Assembly: GCA_017417465.1 (NCBI GenBank)
Contig: JAFPZD010000099.1
Location: forward strand, 1 to 50,823
From: Prevotella sp.
GTDB taxonomy: Bacteria > Bacteroidota > Bacteroidia > Bacteroidales > Bacteroidaceae
DNA: 50,823 nucleotides
Direction: 5' to 3'
In this document: piece by piece, positions 5,385 to 44,551 of the stretch
Numbering within the stretch: the first letter of the stretch is position 1
How the letters are laid out: each line of letters starts with the position of its first letter
Notes under the pieces: model-generated
Told to the model about the DNA's origin: nothing
Databases searched by the model: none
What the model saw: the letters and a program-made list of their open reading frames with translations, nothing else
Position numbers and translations under genes: made by a program

Positions 5385-5575
5385 AACAACGAATTAGACG
5401 AATTAGACGAATTTTACGAATGAGACAAGTTTTACGAATTACATAAATTTGCTACGCACAGACAATCGCCGCTGCGGTGAAAATTTGTGGCATCAATTAT
5501 AATTCGTACAATTCGTGATATTCGTCTTAAAAATATAATTCGTACAATTCGTGATATTCGTCTTAATTCGTTGTT
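5385..5575. repeat. GAATT/AATTC-rich intergenic repeat block
   Basis: This gap holds no gene. It begins with about 9-bp repeats of ACGAATTAG and ends with two exact 33-base direct copies (5498-5530 and 5534-5566) of a TATAATTCGTACAATT-type unit. The outer edges AACAACGAATTA (5385-5396) and TAATTCGTTGTT (5564-5575) are inverted copies, so the transcript could fold into a long hairpin ending the upstream gene. Confidence 0.7.
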
Positions 5576-6643: not shown

Positions 6644-6806
6644 AACTCAACTTTCAAGTTGAGTTAGGAGTTGAGGAGTAAGGAGTTGAGGAGGTAAAGT
6701 AGAATACCTCTACTGCTCTAAGATCCTGCAAAAGGAGCGGTTTAATGGAGGAGTGGGTCTATTCTACTTTACCTCCACATCTCCTCTACTCCTTTACTCC
6801 TGAAAG
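6644..6806 (+). repeat. Palindromic interspersed element, copy 1 (GGAGGTAAAGTA family)
   Basis: It opens with the palindrome AACTCAACTTTCAAGTTGAGTT, split here as AACTCAAC and GTTGAGTT around TTTCAA. It continues with heptamer-like GGAGTTGA runs. The core has inverted arms GGAGGTAAAGTAGAATA and TATTCTACTTTACCTCC around about 55 bases, and it closes with TCTACTCCTTTACTCCTGAA. Copies are at 12260-12500 (inverted) and 21590-21707 (right half). Here it forms most of an operon leader. Confidence 0.75.
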
Positions 6807-10667: not shown

Positions 10668-10682
10668 TTTGACGATTTCGTC

Positions 10683-10734
10683 TCTCATTTTCCATCTTTC
10701 ATCTTTCATCTTTCATCTTTCATCTCTCATCTCC
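10683..10734 (+). repeat. (ATCTTTC)n heptamer repeat directly before the STAS start codon
   Basis: Four to six copies of a 7-bp unit (ATCTTTC and variants) end two or three bases before the ATG at 10735. An upstream TTG start at 10669 reads through the repeat in frame, so copy-number change would shift that longer form but only alter leader length for the ATG form. Confidence 0.65.
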
Positions 10735-11037
10735 ATGACTACTACCATTCAAGAACAGGACGGCAACATGGTTGCCATTTTCGATGGACGCCTTGACACG
10801 GCCGCCGCATCAGAAACTGAGAAAGCCCTGCAGCCGCTCCTCGACTGCACTGGCCACAATATTGTGTTCGACTGCCGCAAGCTGGAGTATATCTCTTCCA
10901 GTGGGCTGCGCCTGCTGCTCGCTGTGCTAAAGAATGCCAAGCCCAAAGGCAGCCGCGTCATGATCAAGGACGCTAATGCCGATATCCGCAGGGTGCTCGA
11001 CATGACCGGCTTTACGAACCTGTTCGAAATGATTTGA
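10735..11037 (+). CDS. STAS-domain anti-sigma factor antagonist (SpoIIAA/RsbV type)
   Basis: 100 residues, the normal length of a lone STAS domain. The start was chosen at 10735 because upstream sequence is a heptamer repeat. The signature strand-loop DCRKLEYISSSGLRLLLAVL carries the serine pair (SSSG) that is phosphorylated in SpoIIAA/RsbV homologues. In such systems the dephosphorylated STAS protein binds and sequesters the RsbW-like kinase. Here the phosphatase and the kinase-like HATPase are fused in the gene before, and a second STAS protein follows after 19 bases, so this is probably the direct switch partner. Target regulator unknown. Confidence 0.85.
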   Translation: MTTTIQEQDGNMVAIFDGRLDTAAASETEKALQPLLDCTGHNIVFDCRKLEYISSSGLRLLLAVLKNAKPKGSRVMIKDANADIRRVLDMTGFTNLFEMI

Positions 11038-11056: not shown

Positions 11057-12271
11057 ATGAACGTAACTGTTAACAACCGAGAGGGAGTGGTGACGCTGAC
11101 GCTTTGCGGACGTCTCGACACGTCTGCCGCCGCGCAGACGATGGCAGAGATTGACCGCCTGCTGGCCGCCAACTCTCAACTTACTGCTCCCGGCACTCAG
11201 CTTGTCTGCGACCTGGCCGGTGTGGACTATATCTCAAGTTCCGGCCTGCGCATCATGCTGTCGTTGGCCAAGCGTTATAAGAACTTCCGCCTTGTCGAAG
11301 TGCAGCCTGCTGTCTACGACGTGTTTGCCATGACGGGCTTCTCGAAAATCATGACTGTCGAGAAAGCCTTGCGGCGCCTAAACATCGATGGCTGCGAGGT
11401 CATTGGCCAAGGCGGCGTGGGCACCGTCTACCGTATCGGCGACGACACCATTCTCAAAGTGTTCCGCGAGGGAACCACCATCAGCGAGGTGAATCATGAG
11501 ATTACCATGGCGAAAGAGGCCTTTGTGCTCGGCATGCCCACCGCCATCTCGTTCGACACCGTCCGCGTGGGGAACCAGTACGGGCTGGTCTACGAGCTGC
11601 TGCGGGCTCACACGTTGAGTGCGTGCATCCGTCGGCAGCCAGAGCGCATCGACGAGTTTGCCCAAAGCTACGCCAACTTGTTCCGACAGCTCCATGCCAT
11701 CGAAGTGCCCACCGTCGGCAACGCTATTCCCAATGCCATGGAGAACGAACTGAAAGCCATCCATGCCATCAGCTGTTACTTCGATGCACCGTCTGTCGAC
11801 CTGCTGCTGCGCATCGCTGAAAACATTCCTCAGGGACACCGCCTGCTGCACTGTGACCTGCAGACTAAGAACGCCATGATACAGGGCGGCGAGCTGATGC
11901 TCATTGACATGGGTGAGGTGGGCTATGGCCATCCGCTCATCGACCTGGCACATTCCTATTCGGCCATGATGACACTCGTGGGCGACTACGAGGCCATCGT
12001 CGGCTTGCCCAAGGCTTACGCCAACGACGTTTGGCGGCGCATGATTGGCTATTATTTCGAGGGCGAGCCTGCCGATGTCGTTGCCCACCGCAAGGAACAG
12101 ATCGCTGTGGCCAGCGTCGTGCGCAACTTCAGCTGGTTGTCGCTTAGCGACTCGTTCCCCGAGGCAGTCATCAGCGAGTGCCAGCAAGTCTTCAGTGAGC
12201 GCGTGGCGAAGCGGAAAGACTATCTCCTCGGCGTGAGCGCCACATTCGGCGACTGGGAAGTAAAGGAGTAA
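11057..12271 (+). CDS. STAS domain fused to an APH-like protein kinase
   Basis: 404 residues in two modules. Residues 1-112 are a second STAS domain with DLAGVDYISSSGLRIMLSLA, including the phosphorylatable SSSG. Residues from about 113 form an aminoglycoside phosphotransferase/kinase-like fold: a glycine loop GQGGVGTVYRIGDD, the lysine of ILKVF, the catalytic loop HCDLQTKN (H-x-D-x4-N) and metal motif LIDMGEVGYG in place of DFG. Substrate could be a protein or small molecule; the fusion and operon suggest a role in signalling and not antibiotic resistance. A related STAS-free kinase family is known in Fibrobacter and Bacteroidetes, from memory. The gene ends directly in a heptamer repeat, so the final residues (about FGDWEVKE) grade into repeat sequence. 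Confidence 0.8.
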   Translation: MNVTVNNREGVVTLTLCGRLDTSAAAQTMAEIDRLLAANSQLTAPGTQLVCDLAGVDYISSSGLRIMLSLAKRYKNFRLVEVQPAVYDVFAMTGFSKIMTVEKALRRLNIDGCEVIGQGGVGTVYRIGDDTILKVFREGTTISEVNHEITMAKEAFVLGMPTAISFDTVRVGNQYGLVYELLRAHTLSACIRRQPERIDEFAQSYANLFRQLHAIEVPTVGNAIPNAMENELKAIHAISCYFDAPSVDLLLRIAENIPQGHRLLHCDLQTKNAMIQGGELMLIDMGEVGYGHPLIDLAHSYSAMMTLVGDYEAIVGLPKAYANDVWRRMIGYYFEGEPADVVAHRKEQIAVASVVRNFSWLSLSDSFPEAVISECQQVFSERVAKRKDYLLGVSATFGDWEVKE

Positions 12272-12500
12272 GGAGGTAAAGGAGTAAGGAGTAAGGAGGT
12301 AAAGGAGTAAGGAGGTAAAGGAGTAAGGAGGCAAAGGAGTAAGGAGGTAAAGGAGTAAGGAGTAAGGAGTTGAGGAGGTAAAGTAAAATAGACATACCCC
12401 ATCAAATCGCTCCTTTTGCAGGATTACAGGGCAGTAGAGGTATTCTACTTTACCTCCACAACTCCCCAACTACTCTACTCCTTACTCAACTAGTTGAGTT
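12260..12500 (-). repeat. Palindromic interspersed element, copy 2 (inverted)
   Basis: Read on the minus strand it matches copy 1 at 6644 closely: it opens AACTCAACTAGTTGAGTAAGG, split as AACTCAAC and GTTGAGTAAGG around TA. The core is bounded by GGAGGTAAAGTAGAATACC and a matching inverted arm, with the shared internal stretch ATCCTGCAAAAGGAGCG. Its far end is an expanded run of AGGAGTA/AGGAGGTAA heptamers (12266-12380) that begins inside the last codons of the kinase gene. Confidence 0.75.
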
Positions 12501-12602
12501 AAACCCAAACGCGTATAAAGCATTTCCTTTACACCAGTAGAATATAAAGCTGCTATTTATAGAGGAAATCGGTCTTTAGTACAAGAGACTGCGTTTGGGT
12601 TT
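12501..12602. mobile_element. 102-bp MITE-like element with perfect 12-bp terminal inverted repeats
   Basis: The ends are AAACCCAAACGC and GCGTTTGGGTTT, exact inverted copies. The interior (TATAAAGCATTTCC to GAGGAAATCGGTC) recurs inverted at 13461-13537 in a longer element. No coding capacity and no clear target-site duplication were seen. It may be a short deleted derivative of the longer element. Confidence 0.55.
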
Positions 12603-12744
12603 AATTCTTCACTTTTTGTGTATACGTCTGTGTATCAGGCGAATGTGGTGAAGGGTTTGTTTCGTATGTCCTGCCCTTGGTGAATAAGTGGCTTCTGGGT
12701 AGTTGACAAGGGCTCGTTGCTATCATTATTTCTGTTCTTAACTG

Positions 12745-12801
12745 AAAAACATCCTGTATACCCTGCATACCCTACACGTGCAGGGTATGCAGGATGTTTT
12801 T
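12745..12801. terminator. Bidirectional terminator-like hairpin beside the 21-bp array
   Basis: The inner stem CTGCATACCCT / AGGGTATGCAG surrounds a loop containing CACGTG. The outer feet AAAAACATCC and GGATGTTTTT pair across a bulge and give T-runs on both strands. It lies between convergent genes ending at 12271 (+) and 13536 (-). The foot sequence recurs in hairpins at 38581 and 38858. Confidence 0.65.
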
Positions 12802-12804
12802 CGT

Positions 12805-12909
12805 TTTATTCTCGGGTTTTACGAGTTTATTCTCGGGTTTTACGAGTTTATTCTCGGGTTTCGCGTTTTTATTCTCGGGTTTTACGAGTTTATTCTCGGG
12901 AATTAAACT
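12805..12909. repeat. Tandem array of five 21-bp units (TTTATTCTCGGG type)
   Basis: Units start at 12805, 12826, 12847, 12868 and 12889. The consensus is TTTATTCTCGGG followed by TTTTACGAG; the third unit has TTTCGCGTT and the fifth changes to AATTAAACTCG. There is no spacer. The unit core is shared with the array at 38659-38805, 26 kb away. An open frame across it (FYSRVLRVYSR-like) is a consequence of the 21-bp period, not evidence of a gene. Confidence 0.85.
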
Positions 12910-12923
12910 CGTAAGTCATAGGT

Positions 12924-13106
12924 TTACGACTCGTAAATGGCATACTTACGACCTGCAAATGGCATACTTACGACCCGTAAATGGCATACTTACGACCCGT
13001 AAATGGCATACTTACAACCCGTAAACAGCTTACTTACGATTCGTAAATGGCATACTTACGATTCGTAAATGGCATACTTACGATTCGTAAATGGCATACT
13101 TACGAC
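12924..13106. repeat. Tandem array of eight 22-bp units with internal palindrome
   Basis: Eight units run from 12924 to 13099, plus a 7-base partial copy. The consensus is TTACGAYYCGTAA then ATGGCATAC. Each unit contains TTACG-3-CGTAA inverted arms, and the first and last groups differ by CC versus TT in the centre. It follows the 21-bp array after 14 bases. It looks like a row of binding sites, one per 22 bp. Confidence 0.85.
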
Positions 13107-13184
13107 ATGAGCTATAGAGCAGAAACAAGGCAATGATATAGCAGTTGACCTATTTGTACACTTTCCTTCACGTTTCTAGAGCAA

Positions 13185-13537
13185 CCGATGCCGTAGGCAT
13201 CGGCTGTGCCCTCAATGGCGAGTAAACACGCGGTTGGGTTGACCGAAGGAACCCTTCACCATAAGTGGCTTGCAATGAGCCTGTTACATTCGATGTGAAT
13301 GGTTTTGCATCTTTCCGAATCTTTTGCGAAGCAAGGGCTGAAAGGCTGGCGGAATGCTGCCGGGGAGCCCCACGAGGTAGAAAGCGCGATGTACCATAAG
13401 GCCGAATCGGTCGTTAGCACAAGAGACCTCCCCGGGGAGGTCTGTTACGGATATTGTTTCTAATGACCGATTTCCTCTATAAATAGCAGCTTTATATTCT
13501 ACTGGTATCAAGGAAATGCTTTATAATGGTTTGGGTT
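13185..13537 (-). repeat. Long interspersed repeat, possibly a MITE or non-coding element
   Basis: Its minus-strand start (13537-13461) matches the left three quarters of the element at 12501-12602. It then carries a perfect 20-bp palindrome AGACCTCCCCGGGGAGGTCT (13424-13443) and the segment TGGTGAAGGGTT, also present beyond the short element near 12647. It ends in the hairpin CCGATGCC-GTA-GGCATCGG (13185-13203), a motif shared with the REP-like repeats at 23326 and 50654. A 75-codon minus-strand frame at 13284-13511 lies wholly inside the repeat and is probably not a protein gene. Confidence 0.6.
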
Positions 13538-14237
13538 AAACATCCTCCAAGGCGTAGAACTGATAGTCGCGGACGATGCGCTGGAGGAAGAGGGTGGGGG
13601 AGGTCTCCTGCAGGTCGATGCCAAACTTCTGGCAGACTTTTTGGGCCAACTGTTCCGTACGCTGAGGCTGGTTCATGGTCAGCGTGCGGCGGATGACTTC
13701 CACCTGCTCCAGCGACAGGTCGGCAGCCTGCGGATAGCGGGGCGAGTAACCACGCGTCAGGTATTCGTAGTCGTCGAGCGACACCTGTATCTTCTTATAA
13801 TCTTGCAACTTGATGACCACCGTGCCCGCCGCCAGGTCGCCCAAACGCTGGTTGCTGCGGTTGACAATCATGACAATGAGTCCCAGAAACGAGAACGTCG
13901 GACCGTCGATGATCCATAGCAGCCACCGCAGCAGGTAGCTGCCCAGTGTGGGTGGCGTGCCGTCGAGCTTCACCACGCGCAGCCGCAGTGCCATCTTCCC
14001 TAAGCTCTGTCCACGGTTCAGCACCTCCATCAGCAGCGTGTAGAGCATGATGGGCATAAAGAGAAGTAGCATAGCGGCATTGAATCCTGCATTGTTCTCT
14101 ATGAGCAGCCAAGTCATGAACGTGCCGTAAGCCAGCAAGACAATCCAGTCGACCAGTTGTGCCAGCATGCGGTCGCCAACGCTGGCCGTAGGCTGTTCGA
14201 TATGTACATATTGGGAAGTAACGACCCCTGTTTCCAT
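13536..14237 (-). CDS. RDD family membrane protein
   Basis: 233 residues. The N-terminal half is an RDD domain: the first helix begins near ASVGDRMLAQLVDWIVLLAYG, a second near AAMLLLFMPIMLYTLL, then the conserved RGQSLGKMALRLRVV and a third helix near LLRWLLWIIDGPTF. The C-terminal 80 residues are soluble and charged. RDD proteins are inner-membrane proteins of uncertain function, often proposed as transporters. It is divergent from the SpoIIM-like gene across 90 bases. That pairing, and the MoxR/DUF58 genes beyond, is a recurrent Bacteroidetes cluster. Its stop overlaps the end of a repeat by two bases. Confidence 0.85.
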   Translation of the reverse strand: METGVVTSQYVHIEQPTASVGDRMLAQLVDWIVLLAYGTFMTWLLIENNAGFNAAMLLLFMPIMLYTLLMEVLNRGQSLGKMALRLRVVKLDGTPPTLGSYLLRWLLWIIDGPTFSFLGLIVMIVNRSNQRLGDLAAGTVVIKLQDYKKIQVSLDDYEYLTRGYSPRYPQAADLSLEQVEVIRRTLTMNQPQRTEQLAQKVCQKFGIDLQETSPTLFLQRIVRDYQFYALEDV

Positions 14238-16248: not shown

Positions 16249-16281
16249 GGGAAGTGAAGAGTTAATAGTGAAGAGTTAATA

Positions 16282-16947
16282 GTGAATAGTGACACGCTCC
16301 AGATAGACAGCGCGCAGATTGCCGTATGGCAGTCTGACAGCCGCTTCGACTACGACCGCGAACTCGTGGGCGGCAGCGAGAACTTGCTGCAATGGCTGGT
16401 GCGAAACGTGACCGACTGGCTGAAAGAGCAGTTGGGCGTGATGATTGGGAGCGACGTCGCTTACTATTCGCTGCTGGTCGTGGGCGGGCTGGTGTTGGTG
16501 TTCATCGCTTACCTGGTGTGGCGGCGCAGGTCACCATCCTTTATGCGCAAAAGCAGTAACGCAGCCTTGGACTATGAACTGGAGGAGGACACCATCTACG
16601 ATGTGGACTTCACTGCCGTTCTGGCCGCCGCTGAGCAGCATGGTGACTGGCGGCAGGTCGTCCGTCTGCTGTACCTTCAGACGCTACGTCTGCTGAACGA
16701 TGCCGGGCGCATTGACTGGCAGCCATCGAAGACACCGGCACAGTATGTGCGTGAGGTCGGCGAACAGTCGTTCACCGGCTTGTCGCACCATTTCGTGCGC
16801 ATCCGCTATGGTAACTTTGAGGCCACGGAAGCTGTCTGCCAGACGATGAAAGGACTGCAAGCACAGCTGAAACGTTCCTTGCAGGAGGAAACCGCTCGAC
16901 AGGCCGCCAGCCAGGATGCGAGCACGCAGAAAGGAGGGCAGGCATGA
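16282..16947 (+). CDS. DUF4129 domain protein, GTG start
   Basis: 221 residues. One membrane helix at about 58-77 (YYSLLVVGGLVLVFIAYLVW) separates a short exported N-terminus from the cytoplasmic DUF4129 domain (from about 100: LAAAEQHGDWRQVVRLLYLQ, then WQPSKTPAQYVREV). The likely start is GTG at 16282, because no ATG occurs until well inside the protein. The GTG lies within a GTTAATAGTGAAGA repeat, so its neighbourhood is repeat-derived. In homologous clusters DUF4129 proteins sit beside MoxR and DUF58 genes, and some carry transglutaminase domains, absent here. ATGA overlap with the next gene. Confidence 0.8.
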   Translation: MNSDTLQIDSAQIAVWQSDSRFDYDRELVGGSENLLQWLVRNVTDWLKEQLGVMIGSDVAYYSLLVVGGLVLVFIAYLVWRRRSPSFMRKSSNAALDYELEEDTIYDVDFTAVLAAAEQHGDWRQVVRLLYLQTLRLLNDAGRIDWQPSKTPAQYVREVGEQSFTGLSHHFVRIRYGNFEATEAVCQTMKGLQAQLKRSLQEETARQAASQDASTQKGGQA

Positions 16948-21713: not shown

Positions 21714-22835
21714 TTACTTCTTCCCAAACAGGCTGTCGAGCAGCTCGTAGAAAGCGGGATCCTCGCCAACGATAGTCTTCACGATCTTACCCTCGGGCGA
21801 GAGGATAATCTTTGTGGGGTATCCCTGAATGCCGAAGTCTTCCTTCACCGTGCTCTCGTTGGGGCAGTAGACGTGGAGCCAGGGCAGCTCGTTCTCCTTG
21901 ACGGCATTCTTCCACTTGTCCTCAGTGTCGTTGCAGTCGATGCCAAGAATTTCGAACTTGCCGGCATACTTCTTATAGTAGTTCTTCATCTCGGGGAAGC
22001 CCTTGATGCACCATCCGCACCATGAACCCCAGAAGTCGAGGATGACATACTTGCCGCGCAGCGACGACAGCGTCAGGGGCTGGCCGTTGATGTCGTTCAG
22101 CGTGAAGTCGGGGGCTTCGACACCCTCTGCCTGCTTGGCAGCCGACTCTTCCTCAGCTTTCTTCTGAGCCTCCATGCGGTCGATGACAGCCTGATAGTAA
22201 GGCTTCATGCGGCCGTTCTTCACCTTCTCGCTAAGCAGTGCCACGGCTTCGGCCATCTTCTCAGGCTTCAACTCGGGGATGAGCGTGGCGACAGCTTCCA
22301 GGTCGGGGTGGGTCTTGATGAAGTCCATCACCTTATTTTCCATTTCCTGCTGGATGGGGGTGATGGCAGCCTCATAGATCTTCATCACGGAGTCTTGGGG
22401 CACGCCCTGCTCCATCATCTTCATGCAGTTGCCCTGAATCTCCTTGGCGGGCTTCTGAGCCTCCTCGAGCATGAGGTCGACCTCGTGGTAGCCCTGGTAG
22501 AACTGTGAACCGTTGTAGTCGAAGCGTTCGTTAACATCGCCTGTCAGTTCCAGTGTCTCGCCTGGAACGGCTACAAACTGCAGTGATGCGCCCTGTTCAC
22601 CGCGGAAGCACTGCGGCTCAATGATGAAGTAAGTGCTGACGGTGTCGACGTTGAGTGTGAACTCGAACTTGCCGTCCTGTACGAGCACGGTGTCGCGACT
22701 CTCACGGTCGTTCTGGTTCATGACGATGAGCGTGTCGCCCAGGTTCTTCAGGTCACCTTTCACGGTGAGGGTCTTGTCGGCGGTACAGCCAGCGATGATG
22801 GCTGCCAGTGCCAATGCGGAAATGATTTTCTTCAT
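21714..22835 (-). CDS. TlpA-like thiol-disulfide lipoprotein with DUF4369
   Basis: 373 residues. The signal ends in lipobox IIAGC (Cys16), so it is tethered facing the periplasm. DUF4369 occupies about 20-130, a helical linker about 130-235, and a TlpA/ResA-like thioredoxin domain the rest, with active site WGSWCGWCIKGFPEM. The motif CGWC and a cis-Pro loop (YPTKIIL) are intact. It probably reduces exported thiol proteins or heme/cytochrome partners, but the substrate is unknown. Upstream at 22918-22938 is a 21-base motif shared with the other minus-strand TlpA gene. Confidence 0.88.
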   Translation of the reverse strand: MKKIISALALAAIIAGCTADKTLTVKGDLKNLGDTLIVMNQNDRESRDTVLVQDGKFEFTLNVDTVSTYFIIEPQCFRGEQGASLQFVAVPGETLELTGDVNERFDYNGSQFYQGYHEVDLMLEEAQKPAKEIQGNCMKMMEQGVPQDSVMKIYEAAITPIQQEMENKVMDFIKTHPDLEAVATLIPELKPEKMAEAVALLSEKVKNGRMKPYYQAVIDRMEAQKKAEEESAAKQAEGVEAPDFTLNDINGQPLTLSSLRGKYVILDFWGSWCGWCIKGFPEMKNYYKKYAGKFEILGIDCNDTEDKWKNAVKENELPWLHVYCPNESTVKEDFGIQGYPTKIILSPEGKIVKTIVGEDPAFYELLDSLFGKK

Positions 22836-25581: not shown

Positions 25582-26808
25582 ATGAACAATCCCATACAAT
25601 TTGCACGTAAAATGCTCGACTTCATGAGAGGTGAACTCGATGAAGAAGAGTCTAAAGCTATGCGGCAAACCATCGATGCCAACGAACAGCTGAAAGCAAT
25701 CGAGCACGACTTTGCCGACAAAGAATACATCAGTCGCGAGATGTCGCGCATGCAGTCCTTCGATGTTGAGGCTGCGCTCAGCCGTGTGCTGGAGAGCATC
25801 AACGTCCAAGAGCCCACGTCCCGTGTACAACCGTGTGAAACCGTGGCCACTCCTCATCTCCTCACCTCCTCATCTCCTCACCTCCTCATCAAGGTTGCCG
25901 CTGCCGTGGCCCTGTTGCTGGCTGTCGGCGGAGCCATCTGGTTCCACCAGTATGCGAAAGTGACGCCACCCGAGCTGTCGCAGGATGTGCTGACCGCTAT
26001 CACCCGTGGCGAGAAGAGTGGCAGGGTCATGGCCACTACACAACTCCTTGACCCCACATCTCCTCAACTTGTCGACTCAACATCTCCTCAACTCCTTGAC
26101 CCCTCAGCAGCTCCACAGCGCAGTGCGTGGGTGGCGCGCGTCATGGAGAGTTTGGAGGATGACTCCAAGGACGAGGTGCGCCAGATGGGCATCACCACCC
26201 GTTCGGCCAACGAGTACTGGCTGTCGCTTCCCGACGGCTCGTTGGTACACCTTAATTATAATACGCGCGTGATATACCCAGAGGTGTTTGTAGGCCAGAC
26301 ACGTGACGTCATCCTTGAGGGCGAGGCCTACTTCATGGTTGCCAAGGACCGCCGCCACCCGTTTGTCGTGCATACGGCGGCAGGCGAAACCCGCGTCTAT
26401 GGCACCGAGTTCAACATCAATACCCGCGAGGACACCACCGAGGTGGTGCTCGTGCGAGGCAGCATCAGTGTGACGCCGACGAATGGCAGTGAGCAGATGC
26501 TCACCCCAGGCCAAAAATGTTCATTGTTCAATGCTCAATGTTCATTGGAAGAAGTCGACACTGCTCCCTATGTGGCCTGGAACACCGGTACCTTCGTCTT
26601 CGACAACGTGCCATTGCAGCAGCTCATGGATGTGCTCAGCCACTGGTACGGCTTCGAGGTGTCGTTCGTCAGCGAGGAGGCACGTGAGAAGCACTTTACT
26701 GGCGAGCTCGACCGTTATGGCTCTATCAAGCCTACGCTGGAAGCCATTGCCAATGTGACGGGGCTGCACCTTTACATCGAAAACGGTGCTATTGTTATTG
26801 AGAATTGA
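25582..26808 (+). CDS. FecR-type anti-sigma factor with repeat-derived insertions
   Basis: 408 residues. The cytoplasmic anti-sigma region (about 1-95) binds the sigma factor; one helix follows (VAAAVALLLAVGGAIWF, about 110-127); then the periplasmic FecR domain (VHLNYNTRVIYPEVF to DVILEGEAYFMV and VYGTEFNINTRED) and a C-terminal DUF4974 (YGFEVSFVSEEAREKHFTGE). Three low-complexity stretches interrupt it in frame: 25821-25890 (CCGTGT and CCTCAT units, just before the helix), 26040-26105 (CTCCTCAACTCCTTGACC-like) and 26517-26548 (GTTCAAT heptamers). They encode TSSSPHLL, TSPQLLDPS and SLFNAQCSLEE. FecR homologues lack these, so they look like secondary insertions. Confidence 0.85.
   Translation: MNNPIQFARKMLDFMRGELDEEESKAMRQTIDANEQLKAIEHDFADKEYISREMSRMQSFDVEAALSRVLESINVQEPTSRVQPCETVATPHLLTSSSPHLLIKVAAAVALLLAVGGAIWFHQYAKVTPPELSQDVLTAITRGEKSGRVMATTQLLDPTSPQLVDSTSPQLLDPSAAPQRSAWVARVMESLEDDSKDEVRQMGITTRSANEYWLSLPDGSLVHLNYNTRVIYPEVFVGQTRDVILEGEAYFMVAKDRRHPFVVHTAAGETRVYGTEFNINTREDTTEVVLVRGSISVTPTNGSEQMLTPGQKCSLFNAQCSLEEVDTAPYVAWNTGTFVFDNVPLQQLMDVLSHWYGFEVSFVSEEAREKHFTGELDRYGSIKPTLEAIANVTGLHLYIENGAIVIEN
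25821..25890 (+). repeat. CCGTGT and CCTCAT repeats inside the FecR gene
   Basis: Three CCGTGT/CCGTGG units (25821-25846) repeat the motif of the inverted repeat around the sigma promoter. They run into four to five 8-bp units of CTCCTCAT type. All are in frame. Confidence 0.6.
26517..26548 (+). repeat. GTTCAAT heptamers inside the FecR gene
   Basis: GTTCATT, GTTCAAT, GCTCAAT, GTTCATT lie in frame. The same heptamer forms a pure array at 28797-28880. Confidence 0.7.
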
Positions 26809-26857
26809 GAATTGGGAATTGTGAATTGAGAATTGGGAATTGTGAATTGAGAATTGA
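26805..26857 (+). repeat. AATTGxG heptamer spacer repeat
   Basis: About seven units of AATTGAG, AATTGGG and AATTGTG, beginning inside the FecR stop codon region and ending 8 bases before the next ATG at 26866. Confidence 0.8.
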
Positions 26858-28796: not shown

Positions 28797-28880
28797 CTCA
28801 ATGTTCAATGCTCAATGTTCAATGTTCAATGTTCAATGTTCAATGTTCAATGCTCAATGTTCAATGGTCAATGTTCAATG
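28797..28880 (+). repeat. (TTCAATG)n heptamer array before the SusC gene
   Basis: About eleven near-perfect TTCAATG units (variants GCTCAATG and GGTCAATG) fill the spacer. The remaining 47 bases to the ATG at 28928 are A-rich leader. Confidence 0.85.
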
Positions 28881-36347: not shown

Positions 36348-37241
36348 ATGACGATGAAGAAACTAATGATAATCGCAGCCATGGCACTCTCGACGCTGAG
36401 TGCCATGGCTCAGCCACAGCAACGCGAGCTGTCGGCAGCCGACAAGATTCAGATGGATATGCAGAATGCATTCTTTGCCGGCATGGGTGATGTGTTGCAA
36501 AAATTGGAGGAGCTGAACAAGGCCTACTATGAGACGGATAACCGGGATTCTGTCGCTGAACTGATGAAGCCATGGCAGAAAATCTATATGGAACGTCAGA
36601 AGGCGTACATGGAGAAATATCCCTCCACGGCACTGGCTTCAGCCTTCCTGCGCGCTGAACTCGGTCGTATGTCCGTCGATGAAATGAAAGCGGCCTACGG
36701 AAAGCTCGACGAGACCGCCCGAGAGACCTCGTCGGGTAAGGAGATGGCTAAAGAGATTGCCACGCTGGAGCGTGTAGCTCCCGGTAATCCTGCACCAGAA
36801 ATTGCCAAGGACGACTTCGTGACGGGCAAGCCTTTCAGCTTGTCATCGCTGAAAGGCAAGGTTGTGCTGCTCGACTTCTGGGCTTCATGGTGCAAGCCGT
36901 GCCGTGCCAGCAATCCCCATGTGAAGGCACTCTACGACAAGTACAGCAAGAAGGGCTTTGACGTGGTCTACGTGGCCGACAACGACAGTAATCCCGACCA
37001 GGCGCTGAAAGCCATCGACGAGGACGGCATCAAGAAGTACCACCACGTGCTCCGTGGCCTGAAGCACAGGACGAGTGCAGAGGGACAGTTTGCCGGTTAC
37101 GACGACAGCGAGGATGTGAGCAAGCTCTATGCCGTTCACTTCCTGCCCACGAAGTACCTTATCGACCGCGACGGTAACATCATCGGCATGGTCGACGACG
37201 AGTCGCTTGACGCCAAACTCAAGGAGATTTTCGGATTCTAA
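36348..37241 (+). CDS. Secreted TlpA-like thiol-disulfide protein
   Basis: 297 residues; an alternative ATG two codons on. Signal peptide to about 22 (LSAMAQ), no lipobox. A helical region (about 25-140) precedes a TlpA/ResA thioredoxin domain from about 148, with active site WASWCKPCRASNPH and a cis-Pro loop HFLPTKYLIDRDG. No DUF4369 domain. It is in the SusCD operon, so its likely partner is a cysteine-containing component of the locus or its ligand. Confidence 0.88.
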   Translation: MTMKKLMIIAAMALSTLSAMAQPQQRELSAADKIQMDMQNAFFAGMGDVLQKLEELNKAYYETDNRDSVAELMKPWQKIYMERQKAYMEKYPSTALASAFLRAELGRMSVDEMKAAYGKLDETARETSSGKEMAKEIATLERVAPGNPAPEIAKDDFVTGKPFSLSSLKGKVVLLDFWASWCKPCRASNPHVKALYDKYSKKGFDVVYVADNDSNPDQALKAIDEDGIKKYHHVLRGLKHRTSAEGQFAGYDDSEDVSKLYAVHFLPTKYLIDRDGNIIGMVDDESLDAKLKEIFGF

Positions 37242-37283: not shown

Positions 37284-38456
37284 ATGATAGAAATGAAAAA
37301 AACTATTCTTTTCGCAGCCTTGGCCGTCGTAGTGGCCGCCAGCTGCACCAGTGAGGGTAACAAATATGTAGTTAATGGCAATGTCGGTGGCGACCAGGAT
37401 GGTAAGACCGTCTATCTGAGCTATCAGGTGGGCGACAGCGCCGTGATTGACAGCGTCGTGATTGCCGACGGTAAGTTTACGTTCAAAGGAACCCTCGACC
37501 GCCCCTATCGTGGTGCCGCCATTCTTATCGGCAACATGAACGATCGGCAGAACCGCCCCGACTACCGCCAGGTGGCCCTCGAGCCTGGAACCATCACCGT
37601 CAATGCTGAGTCTGGCAAGCTGACCGATGCTACCATCACTGGCGGCAAGACACAGACTGAGATGAATGAGCTGCTTGCCCAGCTGAAACCCATGACCGAC
37701 AAGTTCCAGGAGTTCAACGAGAAGTACTATGCCATTACCACGCAGGAGGGCAAGGACTCGCTGAATGCGCTCATGGAGCCGGTGCGTAAGGCGTATGGTG
37801 AGATCTGCTCTAACTTCTACAAGACCAACACTGCCAGCTATCTGGCTCCCTACTACCTCCGCATGGACATGGGCGATATGAGCTACGAGGACATTAAGGC
37901 TGTCTACGACGCTTTTTCCGATGATGTGAAGCTTTATGGCGACGGCATTGAGGAGGTGAAGAAGGAACTCGACGCCCTGGAGCGCATACAGCCGGGCAAG
38001 GAGGCTCCCGACTTCACCGCCAAGGACATCAACGGCAACGACTTCACGCTCTCGAGTCTGAAAGGTAAAGTGGTCATCATCGACTTCTGGGCCTCGTGGT
38101 GCGTGCCCTGCCGCAAGAGCAATCCCCACATGTTGGAGCTCTACAAGAAGTATCACGACCAGGGCCTCGAGATGGTCTACGTCAGTGACGACGACAATGC
38201 CGAGGACAAGTGGCGCAAGGCCGTCGAGGAGGACAAGCTCACGGGCGAAGGCTTCCACCACGTGTTGCGCGGCCTGAAGTGGGACCGTTCGAAGGGCATG
38301 GCTGGCATCGACCACACCAACGACATCTCTGACAAGTACGCCATCCACTACCTGCCCACGAAGTACCTCATCGACCGCGAGGGTAAGATGGTGTGCAAGA
38401 TCAATGAGGGCGAAGACGACAAGCTGGATGCCCAGATTGAGGCACTGCTGAAGTAA
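37284..38456 (+). CDS. TlpA-like thiol-disulfide lipoprotein with DUF4369
   Basis: 390 residues; the codon at 37293 is an equally good start and gives a cleaner signal peptide (MKKTILFAALAVVVAASC, lipobox AASC). DUF4369 spans about 22-140, a linker with helices about 140-240, and the thioredoxin domain the rest, with WASWCVPCRKSNPHM and HYLPTKYLIDREG. Paralogous to the gene before it (the same CxPC R-x-SNPH environment), from which it probably arose by duplication. End of the SusCD-type run; a hairpin terminator lies 125 bases beyond. Confidence 0.88.
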   Translation: MIEMKKTILFAALAVVVAASCTSEGNKYVVNGNVGGDQDGKTVYLSYQVGDSAVIDSVVIADGKFTFKGTLDRPYRGAAILIGNMNDRQNRPDYRQVALEPGTITVNAESGKLTDATITGGKTQTEMNELLAQLKPMTDKFQEFNEKYYAITTQEGKDSLNALMEPVRKAYGEICSNFYKTNTASYLAPYYLRMDMGDMSYEDIKAVYDAFSDDVKLYGDGIEEVKKELDALERIQPGKEAPDFTAKDINGNDFTLSSLKGKVVIIDFWASWCVPCRKSNPHMLELYKKYHDQGLEMVYVSDDDNAEDKWRKAVEEDKLTGEGFHHVLRGLKWDRSKGMAGIDHTNDISDKYAIHYLPTKYLIDREGKMVCKINEGEDDKLDAQIEALLK

Positions 38457-38580: not shown

Positions 38581-38631
38581 AACCAAAAAGCATCCTACCC
38601 CTAAACTTGGGGGGTAGGATGCTTTTCGGTT
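38581..38631 (+). terminator. Strong hairpin at the 3' end of the SusCD-type operon
   Basis: AAAAGCATCCTACCCC and GGGGTAGGATGCTTTT are exact 16-bp inverted copies around a 9-base loop; outer AACC/GGTT also pair. The plus strand ends in CTTTTCGG. It marks the left side of the convergent repeat region. Before it, 38511-38565 holds a GAAGCGGCAAAGCCGAGCGG-like piece related to the REP-like repeat at 50730. Confidence 0.75.
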
Positions 38632-38658
38632 AATCTCTGTGTTCGCGAGATGAATCCT

Positions 38659-38805
38659 GAATCTCGGTTTTTGCGATTTTATTCTCGGGAATTGCGAGCT
38701 GAATCTCGGGAATTGCGAGCTGAATCTCGAGAGTTGTGAGCTGAATCTCGAGAGTTGCGAGCTGAATCTCGAGAGTTGCGAGCTGAATCTCGAGAGTTGT
38801 GAGCT
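38659..38805. repeat. Tandem array of seven 21-bp units (GAATCTCGAGAG type)
   Basis: Units start at 38659, 38680, 38701, 38722, 38743, 38764 and 38785. The consensus is GAATCTCGAGAGTTGCGAGCT, given here without its first base; the two oldest-looking units read ATTCTCGGGAATTGCGAG, the same core as the array at 12805. No spacers. It lies between the + strand TlpA gene and the - strand TlpA gene, flanked by terminators on both sides. Confidence 0.85.
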
Positions 38806-38857
38806 GAAAAAGGGTGGGTATAGAAAAGACAAAAAGTATTCGAATTAACAAAAAAAC

Positions 38858-38921
38858 ATCCCGCTCATCCCGCTCATCCTGCACCCAAACTTAGGTGCAG
38901 GATGAGCGGGATGAGCGGGAT
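38858..38921 (-). terminator. 28-bp perfect hairpin terminating the minus-strand TlpA gene
   Basis: ATCCCGCTCATCCCGCTC and then ATCCTGCACC pair exactly with the right arm around an 8-base loop. On the minus strand the stem is followed by GTTTTTTTG. The stem is built from ATCCCGCTC repeats of 9 bp. It is 8 bases beyond the stop at 38930. Confidence 0.85.
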
Positions 38922-38929
38922 AACTAGTT

Positions 38930-40006
38930 CTATTTCCCCCCGAACGCCTTGTCGAGGAAGTCGTAGAACTCGGGTGACTCGCCGACAACGACCTTGGCGA
39001 TGCGGCCCTCAGGGTCGATGACGATCTTCGTGGGATAGCCTTTGACACCGTAGAGGTCGCTGACATCGGTTGTCTCCTTCGATTGGCGGACGTGTCGCCA
39101 GTTGGCTTCGTGCGTCTTTACGGCCTCGCGCCACTTCTCCTCAGTGTCGTTACAGTCGATGCCAAGGATTTCGAGCTTATCCTTATATTTATTATAGTAC
39201 GCGCGCATGTCGGGGAAACCCTTGATGCACCATGAGCACCAGGACCCCCAGAAGTCGAGGACCACGTACTTGCCGCGCAGGCTGCTCAGTGAGAGCGGCG
39301 TGCCGTCGAGCTGTGGCAGCGTGAAGTCGGGGGCGAGGGCTTCTTCGACAATCTTCTTGGCGTTCGCCTCACGCTGCTCCTTCGATTCGAGACTCTTCAG
39401 CAGCGGCATGTAGTAGTACTGCATGCGCCCCTCGCGCACCGACGGGTCGAAAAGCTGGATGGCCGCCTTCATATCGGCAACGGTCTGGAACACGCCGACG
39501 AGCGTCATGGCGGCCTCCTGAGTGGGGTGCGCCTTGATGTAGTCGAGGACGTTGGCCTGCAGCTCCTTCATCTTGTCCTCACGGTTGTCGCGTGTGATGC
39601 TCTCGTAGATGCTGTTCGTTACGGCCTGTGCCTGCTGGCAGTCGGTATAGAACGGTGCACCGCCGACAGTGTACTTGTCGATGGAGCCGTTGACTACGAC
39701 ATCCTCGCCGGGCATCAGCGTGACCTGTATCACCTTCATGCTCAGCATCTGTCCCGGCTTGGGATTGGGCTTGCCCCTCATAAGCATCGTGCTGACGTGC
39801 TCAGGGGAGATGGTAAACTCGAAGTTGCCGTTGGTCATCGGGTAGACGCCATGGGTGCGTGGGTTGTCGAGGTTCATGTCAATCACGTCGACCATCAGTG
39901 AGTCGCCATCGACATCAAGATGTCCGCTGACGCGGGTGGGGGTGCCTTGAGCACCGGCCAGCATGGCCATGACGCTGGCCATCATCAGTAAAACGGTTCT
40001 TTTCAT
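38930..40006 (-). CDS. Secreted TlpA-like thiol-disulfide protein with DUF4369
   Basis: 358 residues, with a signal peptide ending AMLAGAQ and no lipobox, so probably soluble in the periplasm. DUF4369 at about 25-125, a helical linker, and a thioredoxin domain with active site WGSWCSWCIKGFPDM, close to the CGWC gene at 21714-22835 (both have WCIKGFP), and YPTKIVIDPEG at the cis-Pro. These two minus-strand genes are paralogues and share the upstream motif. Both are distinct from the SusCD-operon pair. The closing sequence FYDFLDKAFGGK ends just before the terminator. Confidence 0.88.
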   Translation of the reverse strand: MKRTVLLMMASVMAMLAGAQGTPTRVSGHLDVDGDSLMVDVIDMNLDNPRTHGVYPMTNGNFEFTISPEHVSTMLMRGKPNPKPGQMLSMKVIQVTLMPGEDVVVNGSIDKYTVGGAPFYTDCQQAQAVTNSIYESITRDNREDKMKELQANVLDYIKAHPTQEAAMTLVGVFQTVADMKAAIQLFDPSVREGRMQYYYMPLLKSLESKEQREANAKKIVEEALAPDFTLPQLDGTPLSLSSLRGKYVVLDFWGSWCSWCIKGFPDMRAYYNKYKDKLEILGIDCNDTEEKWREAVKTHEANWRHVRQSKETTDVSDLYGVKGYPTKIVIDPEGRIAKVVVGESPEFYDFLDKAFGGK

Positions 40007-44001: not shown

Positions 44002-44307
44002 ATGAGTCAAAAAATTCGTATCAAGCTGAAGAGCTACGACCACAAATTGGTCGACAAGTCAGCAGAGAAAATCGTGAAGGCCGTCAAGGCCACGGGTGCA
44101 GTCATCAGCGGTCCTATCCCCCTGCCCACCCACAAGCGTATCTACACCGTCAACCGCTCGACCTTCGTCAACAAGAAGGCCCGCGAGCAGTTCCAGCTCA
44201 GCGACTACAAGCGCCTCATCGACATCTACTCGTCGACGGCTAAGACTGTGGACGCCCTGATGAAGCTCGAACTCCCCAGCGGCGTGGAGGTTGAAATCAA
44301 GGTATAG
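44002..44307 (+). CDS. rpsJ: 30S ribosomal protein S10
   Basis: 101 residues; typical S10 sequence ([51 protein letters not shown]). It functions in the small subunit and as NusE in antitermination. It has its own promoter and a strong terminator directly after it. rplC, which normally follows in this operon, is not in the next 6.5 kb; a nuclease-type ATPase and a surface protein lie there instead. Confidence 0.98.
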
Positions 44308-44343: not shown

Positions 44344-44375
44344 GGGCGAATCGTTTGGCGATTCGCCCGCTTTTT
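44344..44375 (+). terminator. Terminator after rpsJ
   Basis: GGGCGAATCG and CGATTCGCCC pair around TTTGG, followed by GCTTTTTC. The loop TTTG also sits 20 bases before a TAACTTTG box (44378-44385), so it doubles as a potential -33 element. Confidence 0.85.
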
Positions 44376-44551
44376 CGTAACTTTGGCTTCGCCGAAGTTA
44401 CTTTCACTCGGAAATGAAAAGAAAAAATAGTTTTTCTTTTGCATTTCTCTCGTTTTTTCGTAACTTTGGCTTCGCCGAAGTTACTTTCACTCGGAAATGA
44501 AAAGAAAAAATAGTTTTTCTTTTGCATTTCTCTCGTTTTTTCGTAACTTTG
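44371..44551 (+). promoter_or_regulatory. Triplicated promoter unit, 83-bp period
   Basis: TAACTTTG occurs at 44378, 44461 and 44544, exactly 83 bases apart. The intervening sequence (GGCTTCGCCGAAGTTACTTTC to GCATTTCTCTCGTTTTTTC) is duplicated exactly. Copies two and three each have TTTG 19 bases before the box (44438-44441 and 44521-44524); copy one uses the terminator loop. In copies one and two the box is followed by GGCTTCGCCGAAGTTA, making TAACTTTGGC-TTC-GCCGAAGTTA nearly palindromic. The third, which leads into the gene, is followed by CTTTGCACCGCAAAG, a 6-bp hairpin. Confidence 0.75.

Follow-up and report, generated by a model that had tools for sequence, protein, structure and literature searches.

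Two short tandem arrays lie far apart in one Prevotella contig, each between convergent genes and each next to a hairpin. They raise the question whether such arrays are traces of local slippage or copies of a defined element, and, if the latter, what the element would be for. The window is the whole stretch of DNA that was analysed, 50,823 nucleotides, which is contig C236 of a draft genome of 4.42 Mb in 278 contigs (90.8% complete, 5.53% contamination). Its EF-G shares 95% identity with that of a metagenome-assembled genome titled Prevotella sp. Tb.RUG.323, hence a Prevotella-like organism. This genome is called G000 or the own genome below; other genomes are denoted G0xx, contigs Cxxx and loci Lxxx.

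The arrays of the window

TRF recovered both arrays with the 21-bp period given in the initial annotation, the first at 12805-12900 (4.6 copies, score 164), with a fifth, partly inverted unit ending at about 12909-12912, and the second at 38657-38808 (7.2 copies, score 185). The gene calls likewise agreed that both lie between convergent genes, 11057-12271 (+) and 13536-14237 (-) for the first, 37284-38456 (+) and 38930-40006 (-) for the second. The common core that had been described applies to part of the units: ATTCTCGGG is present in all five units of the first array and in only one unit of the second, the rest of which mostly read AATCTCGAG. An extra array, absent from the earlier description, follows right after the first, within about 25 bases (12924-13106, period 22, 8.3 copies, score 275). 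The nine-base core alone, with at most one mismatch, gave 14 matches in the window against a shuffled mean of 10.2, which is not unusual; the unusual feature of the window is the tandem arrangement, not the frequency of the core. Within the 21-bp units of the own genome position 12, which was in no search pattern, is T at 99%, and position 18 carries 0.18 bit. No Rfam family was found in the window at gathering score, and a known RNA family was rejected on this basis. The coordinates of the features are collected in Table 1.

Table 1. Array-associated features of the window and the TTACC loci of the same genome.
Feature	Position	Strand	Remarks
Left 82-bp inverted repeat, bounds the type-A composite	12498-12579	+	91% identical to the reverse complement of 13460-13541
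Type-A left module	12594-12740	+	here TTTAATTCTTCAC, some other copies AACCCTTCAC...GTGAAGGGTT; alignment of copies
Long hairpin with A-tract and T-tract feet, bidirectional terminator-like	12744-12802	.	
21-bp array, five units	12805-12909	+	last unit partly inverted, could pair with the preceding unit
22-bp array, 8.3 units of TTACGACCCGTAAATGGCATAC	12924-13106	+	dyad TTACG...CGTAA
Type-A right module	13107-13433	+	13034-13433 97% identical to L069 4633-5031; matches also in L083, L085, L071
Right 82-bp inverted repeat	13460-13541	-	overlaps the stop codon of the RDD-family gene 13536-14237 (-)
Left hairpin, type-B composite	38581-38631	.	
Left link, type-B composite	38632-38656	+	resembled in some other copies, with L067, L076, L084, L087 matching from 38616 or 38630-38634 on
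21-bp array, about 7 units, AATCTCGAG type	38657-38808	+	
Right link, array to right hairpin	38809-38857	+	recognisable in most of the 14 rows of the alignment; L080 largely lost, L081 poor match
Right hairpin, 9-bp repeats in each arm	38858-38921	.	arms vary by locus, complementarity kept
TTACC loci	L198 6085-6177; L208 13990-14100; L336-L341		

Some other features of the window were recorded along the way. In the protein of 11057-12271, Pfam places a STAS domain at the N terminus and an APH-type phosphotransferase domain behind it. Both convergent genes at the second array encode AhpC/TSA-Redoxin family proteins, and the gene at 38930-40006 has two more relatives on the contig, at 21717-22352 and 36498-37205. 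AAGGAGT-type repeats occur at a gene end (12256-12497) and at 6657-6801, and 12351-12491 is 84% identical to the reverse complement of 6657-6801. Another dispersed palindrome family, with arms made of approximately 9-bp tandem repeats of the ACGAATTAA type, is represented at 5389-5566 and in L068 (5179-5248), L083 (4555-4624) and L090 (5210-5279). An 83-bp direct repeat (44371-44551, 2.2 copies, 100% identity) follows gene 44002-44307, which is in the rpsJ position, and overlaps the start of the next open frame, whose product has AAA-ATPase_like and PDDEXK_9 domains.

An array family dispersed in one genome

A search of the own genome with a two-unit, in-register pattern gave 129 matches (75 and 54 by strand) and none with the reversed pattern, and at least 32 arrays of two or more units were extracted. 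The genome-wide copies and the empty control bear out the earlier proposal of a defined, dispersed composite of hairpin and array; slippage at a single locus is ruled out by the dispersal and by the period peak described below. Among 59 other genomes (35 of the same genus, 24 others of the same order) there was no such array, only three single matches that seem unrelated to the unit, the reversed control giving four. A stricter two-unit pattern had no match in 84,980 species genomes or viral contigs, a collection from which the window's own record was possibly left out. Nothing similar turned up among 50,697 phage and 72,556 plasmid records (distant mode), and a phage or plasmid origin of the window array was rejected on that ground. 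As far as these searches reach, the 21-bp sequence of the initial annotation occurs in its own genome alone; relatives share the architecture and the pitch.

The copies differ in their surroundings. Type A spans 12498-13541 in the window and recurs, in some cases cut by contig ends, at L069, L071, L078, L061, L083, L085 and L075; it consists of a left module, a hairpin and a 21-bp array, to which most copies add a 22-bp array and some a right module. At least 141 of the 147 bases of the left module are covered at seven places of the genome, the window included, with 89-100% identity, and four more places match partially. In type B, found at 38581-38921 and in about a dozen other copies, the array has a hairpin at one end or at both, and the links can be recognised. 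Further arrays have neighbours unlike those of types A and B, thus one array type occurs in several different surroundings. Units related to the 22-bp array of the window (TTACGA...CATAC) are present elsewhere in the own genome, and a similar unit, TGCCATACTTACGAGGAGTAAA, was seen in G034 (L230).

The description that suits the window composite best is that of a BOX- or MITE-like element carrying such arrays together with terminator-like hairpins. One reading of the arrays is that they are selfish or neutral repeats: they would be parts of non-autonomous BOX/MITE-like composites dependent on a transposase acting in trans, would change by slippage or unequal exchange and be homogenised by gene conversion, and their pitch would reflect a preference of the duplication process. 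We take this as a serious possibility, although one that we would not call probable. The dispersed composites with inverted ends speak for it, as does the array copy number, which differs between otherwise similar copies (window versus L069). A point against it is that for 4 of 29 own-genome arrays nothing similar was found in 0.69 Mb of that genome; membership in a multi-copy element was therefore not seen for all arrays. By inspection, the arrays of the window family are not visibly more conserved than their flanks.

Hairpins

The hairpins reported beside the arrays are present at 12744-12802, 38581-38631 and 38858-38921; the third departs from the reported form, having a left A-tract without a right T-tract, that is, a T-tract for the minus strand only. 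The hairpin at 12744-12802 combines a G+C stem with a T-tract on both strands, and because of its A and T feet it is predicted to be a likely two-way intrinsic terminator. A long hairpin was found within 150 bp at 22 of the 32 own-genome sites, and two of the ten sites without one lie within 30 bp of a contig end; the hairpin is a common companion, as had been suggested, without being an obligatory one.

The hairpin arms are mostly made of 9-bp repeats, which vary from locus to locus yet remain complementary. Two-sided changes occurred in 14 of 28 pairs among 14 sequences, and 96.9% of the cells were paired, compared to 32-49% when the arms were slid by one to three columns. Since the 14 hairpins were chosen by their resemblance to those of the window and the structure was derived from the same 14, it is the covariation that is the informative part of this result.

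When the right link and hairpin were built into a covariance model, the own genome yielded 87 matches, with both strands of a hairpin counted separately. With stricter filters, the model matched in the 60 genomes of the genus-wide set only the own genome, G022 (35), G075 (43), G034 (4) and G006 (1). It must be noted that all genus-wide pattern and covariance-model searches drew on this same set, thus they are not independent samples. Six hairpin-adjacent loci of G022, G075 and G034 were inspected for arrays, and five had a 21-bp pitch with a sequence unrelated to that of the window; the locus from G006 carried a 22-bp array. Because these loci kept the pitch with unrelated units, a wider TRF survey was made.

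A 21-23 bp class in Prevotella

TRF and a codon-usage gene caller were run on approximately 0.4 Mb from each of four genomes, on 20 kb from each of 20 more species, and on 44 named Prevotellaceae-like loci, which were sorted by record title and EF-G identity (two are titled Bacteroidales bacterium) and may overlap with the other genomes sampled. The gene caller, which is our own, recovered 37 of 39 annotated CDS in one 50-kb stretch of E. coli. Arrays or hairpins had already been seen on the contigs from which the own-genome, G022 and G075 stretches were taken. No selection for repeats was involved for G024, the 20 other species and the 44 named loci, which are referred to as the unchosen sets. 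Genic arrays, arrays with internal sub-periods and low-complexity arrays were removed before counting, which reduced 333 intergenic arrays to 175 in the six sets (124 to 63 in the own genome). Before filtering, a 7-bp period is another frequent class in these genomes; in the window it is seen at 28798-28880, 26797-26857, 10676-10736 and 16253-16292 (e.g. TCAATGT x 11.9).

Of the 175 intergenic arrays without sub-period, 89 have a period of 21-23 bp, about two turns of DNA (31 with 21, 54 with 22 and 4 with 23 bp), and the neighbouring periods of 20 and 24 bp account for three and five. The unchosen sets gave 41 of 69: five of nine in G024, 15 of 29 in the 20 species and 21 of 31 in the 44 loci. 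The peak is not confined to the genus, since 9 of 22 arrays in other loci with Bacteroidales titles, and four of seven in a small sample of the same order (three of them at 23 bp), also fall in this range; other Bacteroidota and the remaining loci gave none of five, and the E. coli control none of two in 200 kb. Order-1 Markov resampling of 429 kb of intergenic sequence, done three times, yielded 5, 2 and 7 arrays (1, 0 and 3 at 21-23 bp), compared to 147 (77) in the real sequence. The two-turn period, noticed originally at two loci, is therefore a real preference in many Prevotella species.

The units differ between species while the pitch stays. G075 and G034 have a unit in common, CACGAGNGGC, with 22+21 and 4+3 matches, respectively, and none in the other 58 genomes. 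Unrelated units also coexist inside one genome, thus one protein cannot serve all arrays.

Anatomy of the units

The units of the 21-23 bp class are dyad-symmetric. The mean best stem of 89 units was 4.48, compared to 3.46 (sd 0.09) after shuffling, and the 41 units of the unchosen sets gave 4.76 versus 3.58 (sd 0.13), while 37 units of other periods (14-35 bp) gave 3.54 versus 3.38 (sd 0.13), i.e. they are not dyad-symmetric. Some units have no clear dyad (stem 2-3). Purine content shows power at 22 bp (z 7.1), as dyads would give. A sharp peak at 21-23 bp, with dyad units in that class only, is unlike slippage and counts against the arrays being selfish repeats; we know of no general slippage mechanism that yields such a peak with dyads solely there.

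The distinction between core and spacer is clearest in G022, whose unit consists of AAAGGTSACCTTT and eight further bases. A two-unit pattern had 95 matches per strand, the pattern being palindromic, and none in 59 other genomes. A search for the core alone (at most two mismatches, free distance) found 20 sites in 395 kb, with nine neighbouring pairs at four loci, all at 21 bp, and the core distances up to 130 bp were solely 21, 42, 63 and 84. Five of the eight spacer positions (15-19) are near random (0.1-0.6 bit), whereas positions 14, 20 and 21 are not; the conservation of the core in this search is partly built in, because the sites were found by searching for it with two mismatches allowed. 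In the eight motif-free TRF arrays of G022 the core differed at 30 of 330 positions and the spacer at 47 of 198. A core kept better than its spacer at a fixed pitch, as in an array of protein sites, is thus found in G022; it is weaker in the other sets.

Over all sets, the 33 dyad arrays were off consensus at 109 of 1314 core positions (8.3%) and 115 of 767 spacer positions (15.0%), the core being better in 26 arrays and worse in seven. The difference of 0.07 compares with a rotated-column control that had a mean of 0.00, sd 0.02, and 0.05 as the largest of 200 values. Outside G000 and G022, stems of at least 5 retained the difference (core 9.8%, spacer 15.2% mismatch, p 0.009), but with stems of 4 it was gone (10.2% versus 11.0%, p 0.32), which weakens the generality of core conservation. 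The better-kept cores and the exact pitch of G022 would not be expected from drift, and this is a further difficulty for the selfish explanation. Pitch, dyads, core conservation and change between species, taken together, fit sites of a dimeric protein better than drift.

In A/T content, the units have more power than expected at about 11 bp (z 4.0); the other harmonics tested show no excess. Such phasing could point to a supercoil sink: phased arrays would be preferred sites of gyrase or some other protein that wraps DNA, and the positive supercoils that arise between convergent genes would be removed there, an argument already made for REP in E. coli. The convergent bias reported below and the constancy of pitch with changing sequence would agree with this, and REP elements are described as gyrase targets in parts of a study of these repeats (PMC3733652). 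We nevertheless consider it distinctly improbable, since the conservation of palindromic cores within a species suggests that the bases themselves are recognised.

The TTACC family

Another family of the own genome, referred to as TTACC and with the 22-bp unit TCTTACCACTTAAGTCGCAAGT, is present at eight loci, with three to five exact units at each, and allows comparison of arrays with their flanks. The array cores (18 of 22 positions) are almost invariant: deviations from the common unit number 2 in 630 positions, and a single further one falls outside the cores. Where right flanks match, their identity over 120 bp is 74-87%, and for one left-flank match it is 88%; three of the eight left flanks match no other, and the all-pair means, which include unrelated pairs, are 50% (left) and 60% (right). 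An early impression of a "naked" array without shared flanks was wrong: the flanks are partly homologous but diverged. The identity of the arrays is in part built in, as the sites were found by searching for the unit with 3 mismatches in 20 allowed, and strongly diverged arrays would be missed; of 36 matches, 25 had no mismatch, nine had one, one had two and one had three. A possible 6-bp repeat, of the kind that a target-site duplication would leave, was seen at the C206 locus and none at C254.

For this family, where the arrays are conserved far better than their flanks, there are two candidate causes, selection that preserves the array or a process that rewrites it. The arrays could be recent conversions, which would suit selfish repeats. 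They could also be written from a template, a reverse transcriptase or another enzyme adding identical 22-nt units at many loci from one source, and near-identical units at eight loci with diverged flanks are what such an activity would leave. No single-copy template with up to three mismatches was found outside the arrays in this 90.8% complete genome, however, and no other evidence points to templated writing, which we regard as highly improbable. Outside the arrays, the search at up to three mismatches gave only one match, with three mismatches (reversed control 1 and 1). No TTACC site was therefore found outside the arrays above the control level, which makes a classical regulon unlikely. 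With at most two mismatches, the site occurs 35 times in the own genome, three times in G081 and once in G073, and is absent from the other 57 genomes.

Position relative to genes

The tail-to-tail setting proposed in the initial annotation is right as a tendency and is not exclusive. Of 20 own-genome 21-bp arrays with called neighbours on both sides 13 are convergent (two of these share one gap), seven codirectional and none divergent. Pooling the six sets (n=78) gave 28 convergent, 44 codirectional and six divergent locations, with 11.9% convergent (p 4e-8) and 20.1% divergent (p 0.002) expected by intergenic length. Without the own genome, the convergent share was 14 of 52 versus 10.5% (p 7e-4) and the divergent 5 of 52 versus 19.7% (p 0.04). 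In the unchosen sets the convergent excess was retained (8 of 36 versus 8.9%, p 0.013), while the divergent depletion was not significant (4 of 36 versus 17.5%, p 0.22).

This bias can be read in more than one way. Parts of a study on pneumococcus report convergent enrichment for BOX, RUP, SPRITE and IS elements, where it is taken as tolerance (PMC3049150), and the selfish reading gains from this parallel: the elements would accumulate downstream of genes because they are not tolerated in promoters or in coding sequence. A bias common to all these elements is weak evidence of function, and the location bias does not separate function from tolerance. REP elements, according to parts of another study, lie mainly between codirectional and convergent genes, and RNA and gyrase roles are discussed for them (PMC3733652).

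The hairpin turned out to be weak as a general companion beyond the own genome. It was present within 150 bp at none of 11 arrays in G022, two of eight in G075 and none of five in G024, and at 1 of 15 and 2 of 21 in the wider sets, under a strict loop limit. Downstream of rpsJ, 4 of 37 loci (L269, L271, L280 and L281) carry a 21-22 bp array, with unrelated sequences; this is too few to claim rpsJ ends as a preferred site. At these four ends, as read from the sequences, a terminator-like hairpin stands between the stop codon and the array. The order stop codon, terminator, array is striking there but failed as a general rule: among 88 arrays, a terminator came before in 21, after in 16, on both sides in ten and on neither in 41, compared to 28, 17, 7.5 and 36 with random placement.

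These observations bear on a possible RNA role, namely that the units are tandem mini-hairpins in 3' untranslated regions, which would stabilise transcripts or aid termination, on both strands between convergent genes. The inverted-repeat units and the downstream bias are compatible with this, in 25 of 88 cases no more than 60 bp separate the start of the array from the stop codon of a gene that faces it, and REP elements are argued to act partly as RNA in sections of PMC3733652. The fixed two-turn pitch would be left unexplained, however, and the array at 38657-38808, together with several other type-B arrays, lies between two hairpins; the hairpin that precedes the array at the four rpsJ ends is a similar obstacle. 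Moreover, the dyad centre comprises 0-1 bases in 22 of the 36 units whose stem is 5 or longer, and 3-4 bases in only eight. We consider the RNA role improbable.

Comparison with known repeat systems

It is useful to compare the arrays with described systems. The BOX element of Streptococcus pneumoniae (boxA-boxB(n)-boxC) is, in the parts of PMC3049150 that describe it, a modular, dispersed intergenic repeat with variable tandem units between two different hairpin-capable end modules, and it is overrepresented between convergent genes. Several type-B copies have the order hairpin, link, 21-bp(n), link, hairpin and can be set beside BOX by this layout alone; the Prevotella arrays differ in having 21-22 bp dyad units, a species-specific unit sequence and a constant pitch. 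REP/BIME elements are also short palindromes downstream of genes, sometimes in tandem, with a GTAG or CGTC tag beside the stem, as far as the relevant parts of PMC3733652 describe them. In contrast, the array-side hairpin feet lack GTAG and CGTC, having by inspection A/T tracts next to ATCC/GGAT, and the Prevotella arrays have a fixed two-turn pitch. A RAYT/REP origin was rejected, as the feet have no tags and the Y1/RAYT transposase family PF01797 does not seem to track the arrays (two hits in G000, one below the cut-off in G022, two in each of G075 and G034 with one over it, none in G024).

The type-A composite resembles a MITE in that its window copy has inverted ends of 82 bp, L061 and L078 have inverted quasi-palindromic ends by inspection, and there are about seven dispersed copies of the left module; unlike MITEs, some arrays were not seen in such elements. 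The layout is not that of a CRISPR array: the units abut, with 2-9 bp between palindromes in place of unique full-length spacers. Plasmid iterons, partition-site arrays (parC/parS) and matS are either arrays of sites near a two-turn pitch or dispersed palindromes kept at many loci, whereas the arrays described here are chromosomal, occupy dozens of loci and differ in sequence in each species. The sites of TnsB and MuA at transposon ends are spaced 22 bp, but the Prevotella arrays do not stand at both ends of an element in opposite orientation, and their units are palindromic. We noticed no paper on such arrays in the open-licence literature.

A possible role for the arrays

The explanation we lean to, tentatively and short of calling it probable, is that the arrays are species-specific platforms of operator-like sites for a putative dimeric DNA-binding protein. 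Each unit, a short inverted repeat, would provide the half-sites for a symmetric, probably dimeric protein, and units two helical turns apart would place neighbouring dimers on one face of the DNA, where binding could be cooperative. As the specificity of the protein shifted between species the palindrome would shift with it, and the geometry would be kept. The arrays would be tolerated or kept mainly downstream of genes; in the own genome, BOX- or MITE-like composites with terminator-like hairpins would carry and multiply them. The hairpins flanking the array at 38657-38808 would each be placed to stop the gene on its own side. We infer binding by a protein, its dimeric state and its species specificity from this geometry, and an architectural role, as roadblock, domain anchor or supercoil sink, seems to us a better guess than control of a nearby promoter.

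It is unusual for bacterial repeats to keep a constant pitch while their sequence changes: lineages share the geometry, not the sequence. If the arrays are selfish, they represent a minisatellite class with an unexplained size rule. If a protein reads them, one of the most common genera of gut and rumen would possess a new nucleoid or termination factor, and the palindromes of each species could serve as ready baits in the search for it. In its widest form, which we consider doubtful, the proposal is that Prevotellaceae, and perhaps other Bacteroidales, may possess a new chromosome-wide architecture system, in which dozens of intergenic platforms of two-turn dimer sites would serve a fast-evolving putative DNA-binding protein, each species having palindromes of its own.
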